IMG/VR virus record: IMGVR_UViG_3300025815_000059
Span: 1-32,075 of that record
Length of the DNA stretch: 32,075 bases
Direction: 5' to 3' (one strand)
DNA from: a virus
This document shows positions 19,853 to 25,767 of this stretch, piece after piece. Below the pieces are notes generated by a model. That model did not search any database. It was given only the letters and a program-made list of their open reading frames with translations, and was not told where the DNA came from. The number at the start of each line of letters is the position of its first letter. Position 1 is the first letter of the stretch. Both the position numbers and the translations under genes were made by a program.

Positions 19853-19874
19853 AGCCCCTTCGGGGGCTTTTTTT
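19853..19874 (+). terminator. Strong intrinsic terminator of the early operon
   Basis: AGCCCC-TTCG-GGGGCT makes a 6-bp stem with a UUCG tetraloop, followed by seven T in a row. It ends the plus-strand block where it meets the minus-strand block. On the minus strand the stem has no T-run behind it, so it probably acts in one direction. Confidence 0.92.
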
Positions 19875-22680
19875 ATTCTGCTAATTTAAAGGCTTCTTCG
19901 AATTTTTCTTGCTCAAACTTATCTAAACCACCGCCAAAGAAGTTGTAGATGAACGGCCCGATACCCGGCAACCCTCTCAAGAAACGAGTGTTCACTTCTT
20001 CACCGCTGAATGCATCAAACAATGATGTACCAATAGCGTCTATCTGACTGATGATTGCAGGGGTTGCAGTTTCTTGAATGAATGTACCAAAGCGTCCATC
20101 ATCCAGAGAATTTTCCCTTGCATATTCTGAAACAGCAAAGATTTTAAAGAAGTTATTGATATAGTTATCTGGGATTTCATCTGGGTTCAATCCACGTCCC
20201 ATCACAGCATCCTTGACTTCATCAACTGTTGCACCCATGAATGGCACAATAGTCATGTATCGAACTAAGTTCTTACCACCCTCTGTGTAGTTGCCTCGTG
20301 CAATCTGTGCAAAGATATCATTACGAATCAAGTCAAGTTGCTTTAAAGTAAATGTTTTAAGCGCATAGAAAATACGGCCATTAGGTGAATTCAAATACTG
20401 TTGAGGCATTTCTGTTAATGAGATGGGTTGCACATCAGAAAGTTCATTCCAGAGATAGAGCTTGACATTATCTGTTATTTTACCGGCACGTAGATCGTTG
20501 ACCAATAGATCAAACTCATCACCAAAAACTTCACCATATTTTGATTTAAGTTTCTGCGTTCCTTTGGTAGACTTAACTAAAGCCTGCGCTTTATTTAATG
20601 AACCATTAATCAATGTGTTCTTACCGAATCTGTCAATAGCACGGAACCCTGTGTAAGAAAACAGTTTGTTCAAAAACTTACCGGTTGAATTGGTACTAAC
20701 AAATTCCTGTGCAATGGTATCTTCAAGTCCTAGATCCTGCATCCGAATCCTCTTGGGGCCAAGCACAGCTTTGATTGTATTCCTGAATCCATTAACATAT
20801 GTAGCAACACCAACATCACCAAGCTGTGTCAATGCAGAGATTGGGTTACCGATGGTTGTTGAGTAACTGATGTTACGAATATCTTGAATCCATTTAGAAG
20901 GAGCTTTTTCTCCAAAACCAAAACGTGATTGCAGTAAGTCAGCAAGTTCAGCTTGGTCTCGCATATTAATATTGTTCTTAGCAATCTCTTTAGTAATTAA
21001 GCCACCGATAGATTCTTCAAGATCAATATCAGCCATGCCTTTGTTTTTAGCACTTTGCCCAAAGAATCTACGCTTCTCAATATTGTGTGTGGTCTGTCTA
21101 ATATATGCGTGTAAAGACTCCATTGGATTGGCGTAGTCATCAAGAATATCTTCAGTGACATTCTTAATAGTTCGTCCTTCAACAAAGGTCAACTTAGTCC
21201 CAACTGTTTTAGGAACATAACCACGGGCAATGTTATTCACAATCTGAATCTTATCTTCCTCAGGGAGCTTTGCAACTGTTGTACCAAGTTGTTTAGCCCG
21301 TGCTTTCCATGCCGCCTCAATCATTCCATTCTGAGTACCACTGAGCTTTTCACGCAGTGCGTTGACATCCTTGACTAAACGTGGGAAATAGTTAGGTATC
21401 TCAGCAACTTCATATCCTGCGGCTTTCATGTCATCATAAAGATTCTTGAGTACATTCCGAACTTCATCAAAGTCATCAGCAAGTTTTGGATTCGATGCCT
21501 TCATCAACCCCTTTGCTGTGTTGAAGTTACCATTGAATAGATGGCGAGATACAGCTTGTTGTGTTTTTTTATTGAGTTTGTTAAACTTTTTGATGAATGG
21601 CTCAACTCGACGCATATACTTTTCAGAGTTAACATGACTACGCATTTCAAATTTACGTAACCCACTTGCAACTGTTGGAGAAATATTTTTAACACGAGTG
21701 TGCAATGCACCAAACAAAGAGTCAATGGTTGGGAATTTTGAGCGAGCACTGATAGGATTTGTTTTTAATGCTTTAGCCTCTGCAATCAGTTTAGCTTCTT
21801 CAAGGCTAGGAATTTTAAATTTAGTTTCTGAGTTAGCAACAATTGTTTCAAACTCATCTGGAGTAATACGTACACGATTCTGCACGAACTTTGGTACATC
21901 AGATTCAGGCACACCCTTGACAACAGCTTCAGCAACAGCGTCATTGACTTCATCCATCTTAGCGGTTGATGCGTCACGCACTTGAATATCATCTGTTTTC
22001 TTACGAGTAATTTTACTGACAGTATTACCAATTGCTTTACCAACTGTCTTGGCCGCGATAGCAACTGCAGGAGTAGCGACAGCAGTAACAGCCGCTGTAG
22101 TTCCTGCCTGCACCGGATCAATTTGTCCGGTCTGTGCAAGCTGATCTGCAGAGTCATAACCAAAGCCAAGCAGACCACCAATTACAGCCATACCACGATA
22201 AGTAGCACCGACAGGAAGCAATGTTGATGGATCAGCTAAGGCACCACCAAGACCACCAATCTGTGCGGCTAGTGTATCTGTTTGGCCTGCTTTAATAACA
22301 TCAGCGTATTCTTGTTCTATCTGCTTTTGTCTTTGATCTAACAACATAACCCGGCGTTCTTCAGGCGAAGCATTTATAAAGTCTTGACCGTATAGTTCTT
22401 CAGGACTGCGATAATCAATCCCATCATCAGTGAATACGATATCTCCAAGTGGCATGCGAGACTCCGCCCACAATGCCATATTTTCTGAGAACGATGGTGT
22501 AGCATCAAAGCCATAGGATAGTTGCTCTAATACATCCGGGTCTTCAGTAATTAACGCACCGCCAAATTCATCAGTCTCTGATTGCTCAACTAATGTTCCA
22601 CCAAACGTATCAACAGTCGGTTTGTCTACAACAACTGTGATGTCAGGAACAAGAACTCCACCGAATTGATCTGTAGCCAT
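19873..22680 (-). CDS. Large internal virion (ejection) protein, 935 aa
   Basis: The start overlaps the previous stop (TAATG). The N-terminal 50 residues hold three copies of a D-x-FGG-x-L motif (DQFGGVLVPD, DTFGGTLVEQ, DEFGGALITE). A hydrophobic Ala/Gly-rich region follows (about residues 140-220, LGGALADPSTLLPVGATYRG and TAAVTAVATPAVAIAAKTVG). The rest is mainly helical with KKFNKLNKKTQQAVSRHLF and IPNYFPRLVKDV. Size, place at the end of the tail module and membrane-active stretch fit the podovirus ejection proteins (T7 gp15/gp16 role), which form the DNA channel through the cell envelope. No lytic transglycosylase motif was spotted. Confidence 0.75.
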   Translation of the reverse strand: MATDQFGGVLVPDITVVVDKPTVDTFGGTLVEQSETDEFGGALITEDPDVLEQLSYGFDATPSFSENMALWAESRMPLGDIVFTDDGIDYRSPEELYGQDFINASPEERRVMLLDQRQKQIEQEYADVIKAGQTDTLAAQIGGLGGALADPSTLLPVGATYRGMAVIGGLLGFGYDSADQLAQTGQIDPVQAGTTAAVTAVATPAVAIAAKTVGKAIGNTVSKITRKKTDDIQVRDASTAKMDEVNDAVAEAVVKGVPESDVPKFVQNRVRITPDEFETIVANSETKFKIPSLEEAKLIAEAKALKTNPISARSKFPTIDSLFGALHTRVKNISPTVASGLRKFEMRSHVNSEKYMRRVEPFIKKFNKLNKKTQQAVSRHLFNGNFNTAKGLMKASNPKLADDFDEVRNVLKNLYDDMKAAGYEVAEIPNYFPRLVKDVNALREKLSGTQNGMIEAAWKARAKQLGTTVAKLPEEDKIQIVNNIARGYVPKTVGTKLTFVEGRTIKNVTEDILDDYANPMESLHAYIRQTTHNIEKRRFFGQSAKNKGMADIDLEESIGGLITKEIAKNNINMRDQAELADLLQSRFGFGEKAPSKWIQDIRNISYSTTIGNPISALTQLGDVGVATYVNGFRNTIKAVLGPKRIRMQDLGLEDTIAQEFVSTNSTGKFLNKLFSYTGFRAIDRFGKNTLINGSLNKAQALVKSTKGTQKLKSKYGEVFGDEFDLLVNDLRAGKITDNVKLYLWNELSDVQPISLTEMPQQYLNSPNGRIFYALKTFTLKQLDLIRNDIFAQIARGNYTEGGKNLVRYMTIVPFMGATVDEVKDAVMGRGLNPDEIPDNYINNFFKIFAVSEYARENSLDDGRFGTFIQETATPAIISQIDAIGTSLFDAFSGEEVNTRFLRGLPGIGPFIYNFFGGGLDKFEQEKFEEAFKLAE

Positions 22681-23723
22681 TAAGGTTTCCTGTATGTGTT
22701 ACCATCTGCACCAACGTATGTTGCTCCACTAGGCAGTGCATCATATTGCGCTTGGGTAGTAATCGTTTGCGTGTCAGATTGGTCAACTAATTCTTGTTCT
22801 GCTCCAAGTAAACCAAATCCAGTTTGCCACCAAGGACGTTTTTGGATTCTACCTTGCTCTTTTATTTCTGCAAGAGCCTGTCGAGTTGCATCGGCTTGGT
22901 TGACGGGTTCTCCTCGACTTGATGCAGATCTCATAATCTCATCTACTCGTGCAGTAATCTCTGCAGATGCTTGTGTTTGATCTTCAATGCTTAAATCTGC
23001 AAACTCTTCGTCACCTAAAAGTAGTCCACGAGTAACCCCAACATCGGCTTTACTGATTGGAGTAGCGGCTCCCGGTGTAAATTCAATTGCATTGGCTACC
23101 AAAGTCGGAGGATCAGTATTTAAATTATAAATCTTTCCACCAATACGACCGCCTAAAAACTTTTCACCCGTTGCAGAATCTTGATACGTCTTGACATTTT
23201 TAAAGTCTACAGCATCTGGAGTAAGTTCGGATTCAGTTTTTGCTTTGGTTAGCTCGATCTGTGCAAGTTCTTTTTCTAACGATAACAATCCTGTCCCGGC
23301 ATCCAAAGCCTGTGCTCTTGCATTTTGTGCTTCAGCTAAGAAGCCTGCAGATTCTAATCGATCAGCGATGCGATTGTAGACATCATAGCTTGCTTGTAAT
23401 TGGTTGCGTAAGCGTTGTTCAGGAGCAAGTTCAGCCATGCCACGCTGACGTGCGTCTGCTTCTGCTTCAGCAAGCATAGCACCTTCATCACCACGTTCTG
23501 CTCTGGCCTCTTGGATAATACGCGCACCTTCTTTAGAGCGTTGCATAGCCTCTGATTCACCACCAAATAATCCTTTAAGTAGCAATCCAATTCCTGCACC
23601 GGCTTGTTGATATCCTGTGCGTTGTCCTGCTAGGTATTCAAAAGCGCGTTCACGTTCTCTGGCCGCTACTTCTTGGGGTGTCTCTAACCCAAACATTGAA
23701 TAGACTGTACTTTGCTTTGCCAT
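22680..23723 (-). CDS. Internal virion protein candidate, 347 aa
   Basis: The protein has MAKQSTVYSMFGLETPQEVA, a GTGL-like hydrophobic segment near residue 40 (AGAGIGLLLKGLFGG), then a long helical Ala/Glu/Arg-rich part (ARIIQEARAERGDEGAMLAE, ESAGFLAEAQNARAQALDAG). The C-terminus is QYDALPSGATYVGADGNTYR-KP, a motif I know from ends of phage internal virion or structural proteins. It lies between the 249-aa and 935-aa ejection candidates and is probably packaged in the head or at the portal. The function is inferred from order and composition. Confidence 0.7.
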   Translation of the reverse strand: MAKQSTVYSMFGLETPQEVAARERERAFEYLAGQRTGYQQAGAGIGLLLKGLFGGESEAMQRSKEGARIIQEARAERGDEGAMLAEAEADARQRGMAELAPEQRLRNQLQASYDVYNRIADRLESAGFLAEAQNARAQALDAGTGLLSLEKELAQIELTKAKTESELTPDAVDFKNVKTYQDSATGEKFLGGRIGGKIYNLNTDPPTLVANAIEFTPGAATPISKADVGVTRGLLLGDEEFADLSIEDQTQASAEITARVDEIMRSASSRGEPVNQADATRQALAEIKEQGRIQKRPWWQTGFGLLGAEQELVDQSDTQTITTQAQYDALPSGATYVGADGNTYRKP

Positions 23724-23728
23724 ATTAT

Positions 23729-23887
23729 TTACCTAAATGGAAATCTTGATTGTGATGCTACCCAAGGTGACTGAATGGGTGTTCCTATCGGTTGAAAATT
23801 AAAAGTGCTTGCGTAGTTCTGAACAGCAGGACTAAATGCAGTAATTCCTGTCCAGTTCGGTGGTGACGCAGACGAACCTGCTTCTAT
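23729..23887 (-). CDS. Putative -1 frameshift extension of the 249-aa protein (52 codons)
   Basis: After the stop of the 249-aa gene the -1 frame stays open for 52 codons and ends at TAA 23729, just 5 nt before the next ATG (23723). The peptide begins IEAGSSASPPNWTGITAFSP, then AVQNYASTFNFQPIGTPIQS, and ends PWVASQSRFPFR. It has no ATG or GTG of its own near its beginning and no ribosome site, yet fills the gap between two genes with a normal-looking Pro/Ser/Phe-rich sequence. Reading the slippery heptamer with a -1 shift would append it to the 249-aa protein, giving about 301 residues. A single-base sequencing error could give the same picture. Confidence 0.5.
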   Translation of the reverse strand: MEAGSSASPPNWTGITAFSPAVQNYASTFNFQPIGTPIQSPWVASQSRFPFR

Positions 23888-23905
23888 CCCCCCATTCCCA
23901 TTCCT
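23853..23905 (-). promoter_or_regulatory. Putative -1 ribosomal frameshift signal
   Basis: On the minus strand the last codons are ATG GGG GGA TAG. G GGG GGA (23893-23887) fits the X-XXY-YYZ slippery rule and both tRNAs can re-pair after a -1 step. An AGGAA (23905-23901) lies seven bases before it. Six bases after it a hairpin CAGGTTCG/CGAACTG (23880-23873 with 23859-23853, one bulged G, 13-nt loop) could stall the ribosome, though the stem is modest. Confidence 0.5.
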
Positions 23906-24633
23906 ACTGCACCCGCTAAACTACCGAAGAATCCTGCAGTAGCTTCTTGCTGACGTTGAGCCATATCAGCGGCTGTAGCGTATGGTGAAATAGCAAGGTT
24001 GCCTGCACCCAATGCCGCCGCCGCACGAGCCTGTTCAGCAGAGAGTCCCTGTGCCATCAATGCTTGTTCAAGCCCACTGATTTGTGCTCCTGCACCTAAT
24101 AAGCCTGATGCAAGTTGACCTAGCTGTGCTTGTTCACCAAAGGCTTGAGCACGAGATTGAGCCGCAAGCTGTGCAAGTGTTTGTTGTTGTGCTCTACCTA
24201 AGCCTAATGCATCTGGAGAGACCATGCCTGAGTCCCTACCTAATCCTGCAGACTCTCCTGCCATGCGAAGACCTAACCGTCCTGTACCAAACAAGGATGA
24301 TTGAAGCTCTGTTGCCTGACGTTGGAACTCTGGTTGTAGCAAGGCCGCTTGTTCTTGATACACTTCAGCGGCTCTAGCAGATGGATCAAAGGCCGCTACT
24401 TGACCAAACAATCCTTCCGCACCACCTAGTGCTGTTCCTAGAATGCGTTGATACTCTGGAGACAATGTAGTTGCAAAGCCTGTATCCGGGCTGTACGTTG
24501 CTGTCCCCATGCCTGTTGTAACTGTATAGGGCTTAAAGTAAGCAGACTCAGCACGACGAGCCGCCTCTTGTATGCCTTGCCCCGCAATTCCTGAACCGCC
24601 CTTACCGAACAGTCCACTTACTATACTACCCAT
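23884..24633 (-). CDS. Ala/Gly-rich internal virion protein, 249 aa (zero-frame product)
   Basis: MGSIVSGLFGKGGSGIAGQG at the N-terminus is followed by AARRAESAYFKPYTVTTGMG and YSPDTGFATTLSPEYQRILG. The middle is helical and Ala/Gln/Leu-rich (QEQAALLQPEFQRQATELQS, LAQLAAQSRAQAFGEQAQLG), and the C-terminus is glycine-rich, FFGSLAGAVGMGMGG. Such glycine-flanked amphipathic proteins are typical small ejection proteins of podoviruses (gp14-like role), packaged in the head and injected with DNA. The start overlaps the 93-aa gene by 8 nt. The stop codon follows the slippery site directly, so a longer form is likely. Confidence 0.75.
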   Translation of the reverse strand: MGSIVSGLFGKGGSGIAGQGIQEAARRAESAYFKPYTVTTGMGTATYSPDTGFATTLSPEYQRILGTALGGAEGLFGQVAAFDPSARAAEVYQEQAALLQPEFQRQATELQSSLFGTGRLGLRMAGESAGLGRDSGMVSPDALGLGRAQQQTLAQLAAQSRAQAFGEQAQLGQLASGLLGAGAQISGLEQALMAQGLSAEQARAAAALGAGNLAISPYATAADMAQRQQEATAGFFGSLAGAVGMGMGG

Positions 24634-24907
24634 ATGTATATATACTCCGTTGTATTTTATCGATGCATGTTACATCAGTTAAAAATTGGTATCCTAGTTT
24701 CTTTACAAACTTTTCTAGTTTTGAGTTATCAACCACGCAATAGAATGGTTGTCCTGCAATGATGTTTAATAATGAGTGTACGTCTGCAAACTCTTTGGCA
24801 ATCTTTGGTGTCCACCTGTACACATCAGCATGTGTCCATATTTTGTTTTCAAAGTATTCATAATAAATAGTGTATGCAGGCTGTATAGATACTGGTGTTT
24901 TAATCAT
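24626..24907 (-). CDS. Small protein, 93 aa, possibly acetyltransferase-like virion protein (T7 gp13-like)
   Basis: The start overlaps the adhesin gene stop (TAATG). The product has MIKTPVSIQPAYTIYYEYFE, WTHADVYRWTPKIAKEFADV, then GQPFYCVVDNSKLEKFVKKL and GYQFLTDVTCIDKIQRSIYT. The pattern of H.dV..W.p....f..d...l....g.pfy......k..kF...lGF resembles small GNAT-fold proteins coded before ejection proteins in T7-like phages. The acetyl-CoA loop is not clear, so enzymatic activity is doubtful. The position before the 249-aa gene fits gp13. This is a resemblance call only. Confidence 0.55.
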   Translation of the reverse strand: MIKTPVSIQPAYTIYYEYFENKIWTHADVYRWTPKIAKEFADVHSLLNIIAGQPFYCVVDNSKLEKFVKKLGYQFLTDVTCIDKIQRSIYTYG

Positions 24908-25767
24908 TAAATACTTAATGTATTGATTGTCAATGATCCATCACCAGTAAATGTATGGAAATGACGTGTAGTATCTCCAGAGCCTGTGGTAGTTACTGTG
25001 CCGCCTGTTAAGAGTTGGTTAGCATTAACATAGGATACAATCACAATGCCTTGATATCCATTACCACCTGCGGGACTTGTGCCTGTAGCACCACCTCCGC
25101 CACCACCACCGGCACCGTAGAATGTTGCGGCACCACCTGAACCACTGCCACCACCGGCACCACCACCACCGGCACCTCCTGCTCCTCCTGACGGGTCACC
25201 ACCGCCACCACCAGAGCCTGCGTAACGTGTGGAATTAACTGACCAGACAGTTCCTGCTTGACCGGCAGAACCGTTAGTATCGTCTCGTCCTTGTCCACCT
25301 TGCACACCATTTGGTGATCCACCGGCACCTCCTGCACCAGTACCACCGGCTTGTCCGGAGCCACGATATCCACCACCACCGCCTGTTGCAGTAATGTTTA
25401 AGGTTCCTGTAATTTCAGAGTCACCACCAGATTCACCGGGGTTTACTCCTGTATCACCGCCATCACCAATTGTAATACTTGCGGAGAAATCAGCGTTTAA
25501 AGAAACAGTCGATGTTCCAGAGTTGACACCTCCGCCGCCACCGCCGCCACCGCCGCCCCCAGTACCGTCAGGAACGCCTTCACCACCACGGCCACCCCCG
25601 CCTACTACAAGGTAATCTAAATCAATCTTTGCATGAGCTAACTGCCATGCATCACTTTCTTTGACCCAAACTTCAGTCGCTTCTTTCCATGCACCGTCAT
25701 CGTATACATGCACTTCGTCTTGAAGCTCCCAAGTGTCACCGGTTTTAACATAAACACCGATAGCCAT
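24907..25767 (-). CDS. Glycine-rich tail fibre tip / adhesin, 286 aa
   Basis: The N-terminal 45 residues have repeats of a V-x(2)-D-x-W-x-E/A type (VKTGDTWELQDEVHVYDDGA, then KEATEVWVKESDAWQLAHAK). DYLVVGGGG opens a region dominated by glycine (about residues 55-240), with a run of 11 Gly and repeated GGGG blocks, and the C-terminus is HFHTFTGDGSLTINTLSI. This matches the phage glycine-rich tail domain seen in adhesins whose polyglycine helices pack as a sandwich and expose variable loops to receptors. It belongs to the fibre set together with the 132-aa gene upstream. Likely host recognition at the tail fibre end. Confidence 0.8.
   Translation of the reverse strand: MAIGVYVKTGDTWELQDEVHVYDDGAWKEATEVWVKESDAWQLAHAKIDLDYLVVGGGGRGGEGVPDGTGGGGGGGGGGGVNSGTSTVSLNADFSASITIGDGGDTGVNPGESGGDSEITGTLNITATGGGGGYRGSGQAGGTGAGGAGGSPNGVQGGQGRDDTNGSAGQAGTVWSVNSTRYAGSGGGGGDPSGGAGGAGGGGAGGGSGSGGAATFYGAGGGGGGGATGTSPAGGNGYQGIVIVSYVNANQLLTGGTVTTTGSGDTTRHFHTFTGDGSLTINTLSI

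Follow-up and report, generated by a model that had tools for sequence, protein, structure and literature searches.

A probable programmed -1 ribosomal frameshift at the end of a putative internal virion protein gene in uncultured podovirus-like phages

In the viral contig analyzed here (IMG/VR record IMGVR_UViG_3300025815_000059; the whole stretch of 32,075 nucleotides is called the window), a gene for a 249-aa protein is followed by an open -1 frame that reaches almost to the next gene. Is this frame translated as an extension of the 249-aa protein, and by which route? The zero-frame gene is on the minus strand (23884..24633). It starts with the ATG at 24633 and ends in ATG GGG GGA TAG, with the stop codon TAG at 23886-23884 (23884..23886, minus strand). 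The product is Gly/Ala/Gln-rich and mostly helical by prediction. The heptamer G GGG GGA (23893-23887, minus strand) is in the X XXY YYZ phase and abuts the zero-frame stop. The -1 frame (23729..23887, minus strand) contains 52 codons (23887-23732) and a stop codon at 23731-23729, which would give a long form of 301 aa. Five bases separate this stop from the ATG (23723) of the next gene, which encodes 347 aa (22680..23723, minus strand) and whose relatives set the limit of the gap in other contigs.

The -1 frame is open starting 11 codons upstream of the zero-frame stop, and this overlap of the two frames contains the heptamer in the zero-frame phase. There is no ATG, GTG or TTG in the -1 frame, either in the 11-codon overlap or in the first 30 codons past the zero-frame stop. 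An earlier note on this DNA, made from the sequence alone, had described the same zero-frame end, the exact X XXY YYZ phase, the 52 codons, the five-base spacing and the lack of a start codon, and all of these were confirmed.

The slip signal is conserved in related genes beyond chance. Six protein and profile scans of viral contigs yielded several hundred overlapping loci, which were deduplicated to 98 distinct gene ends; row L001 stands for the window in this comparison, and relatives are cited below by their row. At most of the 98 ends, the next ATG is within about 60 nt of the zero-frame stop; 14 ends have a longer gap, of 102-172 nt. At 11 of these, a gap of 117-172 nt is filled by the -1 frame, which, like that of the window, stops 1-11 nt short of the next ATG. 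An in-frame X XXY YYZ heptamer is present within the last four zero-frame codons of all 11 tailed ends. It is G GGG GGA in five (the window, L010, L018, L026 and L214), G GGA AAG in four (L027, L065, L135 and L181), and C CCA AAG in two (L062 and L063). Among the control ends without a long gap, 3 of 81 have a heptamer in the last four codons (Fisher p 6.8e-12, which is only indicative because the rows are related to one another). The gene bodies contain just 22 in-frame heptamers in a total of 16,421 codons. When synonymous codons were resampled, the chance of a heptamer given the amino acids and the codon usage was 0.005-0.21 per gene, and the product over eight less related rows was 6e-11. 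Two of the heptamer types, C CCA AAG and G GGA AAG, belong to the trio of -1 motifs that a study in E. coli names as most efficient when stimulators are present (PMC4066793). The efficiency of G GGG GGA may be low, because it is absent from the three motifs named there as most efficient.

It is very probable, judging from this comparison, that a programmed -1 ribosomal frameshift produces proteins of 249 and 301 aa. The majority of ribosomes would terminate at the TAG and release the 249-aa protein. In a fraction of them, the tRNAs that occupy GGG and GGA within G GGG GGA would re-pair one base upstream. A hairpin immediately downstream would assist, and a Shine-Dalgarno-like stretch on the upstream side may contribute. 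The slipped ribosomes would read 52 more codons and make the 301-aa form, which shares the N-terminal 249 residues. The junction peptide predicted for simultaneous slippage is GMGMGGIEAGSS. We infer that both forms enter the virion. The two forms with 249 shared residues were proposed in the earlier note; the conserved phase of the heptamer, the homology of the tails and the selection on related tails, the last two described below, all support them. The note had also named conservation of the heptamer and fusion of the tail in relatives as signs of such a frameshift. The phase is kept in relatives through three motif types, and one relative, L146, has a related tail in the ordinary frame.

The in-frame tail of L146 would also suit a sequencing or assembly indel that broke one ordinary 301-aa gene, yet the probability of such an error is practically negligible. 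Two other IMG/VR contigs (L001 and L002) match the DNA of the window over 10,001 bases (no mismatch) and 6,708 bases (one mismatch), in both cases without a gap. Since the six-G run recurs in them, it cannot be put down to an isolated error. Ten further distinct sequences are split in the same way, by a zero-frame stop at an in-phase heptamer, and they include three motif types. An indel, the doubt raised by the earlier note, thus finds next to no room. It is very unlikely that RNA polymerase slips instead, adding a G to some mRNAs at the G6 run and leading to the same fused protein. The members with G GGG GGA do have a homopolymer run, and a T6 run is present in the three relatives whose tail is in the +1/-2 frame, but long runs are absent from the C CCA AAG members, and those with G GGA AAG contain G5A3. 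Moreover, the feature common to all 11 members is the heptamer's codon phase, to which RNA polymerase is blind, and the placement of the site, 3 nt ahead of a paired hairpin, suits a ribosomal signal. Ribosomal rather than transcriptional slippage is therefore preferred: the element in common is the codon phase of the heptamer, with or without homopolymer runs.

The tail could alternatively be a separate small gene, read by coupled re-initiation at the stop, or a decaying remnant that is not translated. An ATG overlaps the stop codon in L065 (GC ATG A), and L062 and L063 have a GTG at the stop. No ATG, GTG or TTG of the -1 frame is found near the junction in the window, L135, L027, L181, L010, L018 or L214, however, and the heptamers would be left unexplained by a separate gene. 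A decaying remnant is at odds with the low dN/dS of the tails in two groups. These readings are considered extremely unlikely, and programmed ribosomal frameshifting is preferred to them. The overlap of the tail-frame start with the zero-frame stop is near position 3268 in L065 (ATG) and near 3262 in L062 (GTG), and re-initiation in these two could add a free tail peptide.

The likely stimulator is a candidate hairpin, AAGCAGG-UUCG-UCUGCGU (23866..23883, minus strand). Its outer pair is 3 nt and its 5-bp core 5 nt downstream of the heptamer; a hairpin does begin shortly after the heptamer, as the earlier note had it, though nearer than the 6 nt given there. The hairpin occurs at equal spacing in L026, L018 and L214, and in L010 with one mismatch. 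Three of the seven pairs are changed on both sides among four distinct sequences, while none or one is so changed in the slid-partner controls. At the window site, the predicted folding energy is matched by that of shuffled sequence (z -0.17), and the support for the hairpin comes from the double changes in relatives, not from energy. In L062 and L135, other hairpins, stronger than this one and unrelated to it, lie 4-5 nt past the heptamer. A weak Shine-Dalgarno-like AGGA with a putative role is present upstream of the slip site (23902..23905, minus strand), as had been noted, and ends 8 nt, not 7, before the heptamer. GGAGGA precedes the heptamer in L026 and L135, whereas the window has just AGGA.

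The tails are short, with 34-55 codons, and of low complexity. The window tail aligns with the -1 tail of L135 (z 13.6, 0 of 1000 shuffles), and they share NWTG[IV].AFSP.VQNYA..F.F. The extension peptide thus has a homolog in a -1 frame, and these homologous tails follow different heptamers. The dN/dS between the two is about 0.45 and near saturation, indicating mild constraint. The -1 tails of the L010 and L027 groups are under purifying selection. In L010, L018, L214 and L026, with the consensus SP[IL]STL[YF]NKGSTL.GTRY.TNPFS.QSRMLA.QEF, dN/dS is 0.06-0.16 and the changes are mostly at third positions of the -1 frame. In L027, L181 and L065, it is 0.14-0.22, again with changes mostly at third positions. 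The zero-frame tail of L146 can be aligned with the -1 tails of both L027 (z 13.5) and L135 (z 5.6). The fused proteins of the shifted members have 287-308 aa, and L146, in frame without a shift, has 307 aa. A search with the tail motif FSPxVQNYA matched only the window's own strain, the contig of L135 and one chance sequence, and the 53-aa tail peptide has no match in PHROGs. In the structure prediction for L146 (mean pLDDT 44), the tail is coil at low confidence. The tail is not essential family-wide, because many relatives have none. It is presumably flexible and aromatic-ended, and would dock a minority of the copies to a partner.

Besides the -1 frame, other routes to a longer C-terminus are suggested among the relatives. 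In three of them (L017, L042 and L087), the zero frame ends in GGY CTT TTT TCG TAG, and a tail of 34 codons follows in the +1, or equally the -2, frame. These possible +1/-2 genes are at L017:5977-6762, L042:668-1441 and L087:2432-3205, with the tail in the following 102 nt. The tail has a dN/dS of 0.14-0.27 and a stop codon that overlaps the next ATG, and the zero-frame stop is followed by a C5/G5 hairpin. A +1 shift at UUU U, or a -2 shift, could join the tail in these genes; this is a lead, not a result. A -2 frameshift is known for phage Mu (PMC5009743). About ten relatives (L003, L009, L011, L015, L022, L024, L033, L049, L061 and L068) have an S74-type chaperone domain at the C-terminus in the zero frame. 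L003 matches Pfam Peptidase_S74 (E 1e-11), and the other S74 ends were called by a DIRLKENI-type motif.

A quickly made tree of 57 proteins, with some long branches, interleaves members that have S74, tailed, short and frameshift ends. At least 9 changes are required to account for shifted versus unshifted members, and the shifted L018 is grouped with L061, an S74 member, as its supported sister. Such interleaving indicates that the gene end is an exchange point, and exchange there may be the origin of shifted and unshifted tails. As a tentative picture that is somewhat more doubtful than not, the gene would encode an internal virion or ejection protein with an exchangeable C-terminal cassette. 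The cassette would be attached through three -1 heptamers, through +1/-2 shifting at T6, or through in-frame fusion including S74, and in the frameshift members, the frequency of slipping would determine how much tailed protein goes into the ejection apparatus.

What is the protein that carries the tail? Head-tail adaptor/portal, capsid and terminase genes of the podovirus type are present in the window, along with DNA replication genes. The gene for a 935-aa protein (19873..22680, minus strand), two genes downstream of the 249-aa gene, is weakly matched by phrog_342 ('internal virion protein with endolysin domain'). The 249-aa protein itself matches neither phrog_6121 ('virion structural protein') nor phrog_4287 ('DNA ejection protein'), whereas its relative L024 matches both, the latter at residues 101-319, and L219 weakly matches phrog_6121. 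The family score of L024 comes partly from its Peptidase_S74-type end. The AlphaFold model of the 249-aa protein is mainly helical (pLDDT 63). Searches of the PDB by sequence and by fold gave nothing significant, the helical matches being uninformative, and the matches in BFVD are unnamed proteins of uncultured phages. Among annotated phage records, neither the 249-aa protein nor either of two distant relatives has a match, and no relatives of the 249-aa protein were found in bacterial genome contigs. Based on gene order, the weak match of the neighbor and the family matches of relatives, the 249-aa protein is somewhat likely to be an ejection or internal virion protein. The assignment made in the earlier note is thus plausible, on weaker grounds than the frameshift.

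Just upstream of the genes for a 93-aa protein and the 249-aa protein, the window has a gene for a protein with a glycine-rich domain (24907-25767; PF21722, E 4e-11), and a tail-fiber-like gene precedes it. The capsid gene is at 1085-2086 (phrog_267, E 1e-52), and the major capsid protein is about 30% identical to those of cyanophage PP/Pf-WMP3-type podoviruses.

The -1 frameshift is an already known class of mechanism. In lambda gpG/gpGT and related tail assembly chaperones, a -1 slip likewise ends a short gene, and the lambda slip motif, G GGA AAG, is one of the motifs found here. The present locus differs in its podovirus-like genome, and no match to a tail chaperone or a tape measure was found. 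A lambda-type G/GT chaperone, which would be a gene pair upstream of a tape measure gene in a long-tailed phage, was rejected: the next genes encode 347 and 935 aa, the 935-aa product has the internal-virion-type match, and the portal gene has a head-tail adaptor match. Gene 10A/10B of T7 and T3 is also a podovirus structural gene in which a -1 slip near the end leads to a longer form (PMC5009743). It encodes the major capsid protein, unlike the gene here, and the T7-type capsid frameshift was rejected because the capsid gene of the window is another gene (1085-2086). T7 moreover has G GU in the X XX place (PMC5009743), and the tail is different. Gene 10 and the Ig-like domains added by frameshifting are the nearest known parallels in kind. 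Such domains are attached as C-terminal modules to diverse phage proteins through -1 or +1 frameshifts or in frame, depending on the phage (PMC5009743). They resemble the present case in this respect, but the tails here are short and of low complexity, and the carrier protein is different.

A literature search, mostly without subscription papers, found no report that combines a frameshift with a podovirus protein of the internal virion, core or ejection type. Frameshift extensions in phage structural genes were previously known from capsid, tail tube and tail chaperone genes. Another structural gene would be added here, from a group of uncultured podoviruses in which the protein has no match among annotated phages. 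Its tailed form would be missed by ordinary single-frame gene calling. The swaps among slip motifs, the possible second type of shift and the in-frame fusion offer ready comparisons for the gain and loss of recoding sites. In L051 (5965-6762), the zero frame ends in G GGG GGT TAA and the next gene begins 9 nt on, with no tail; this heptamer without an extension is perhaps due to chance or a remnant.
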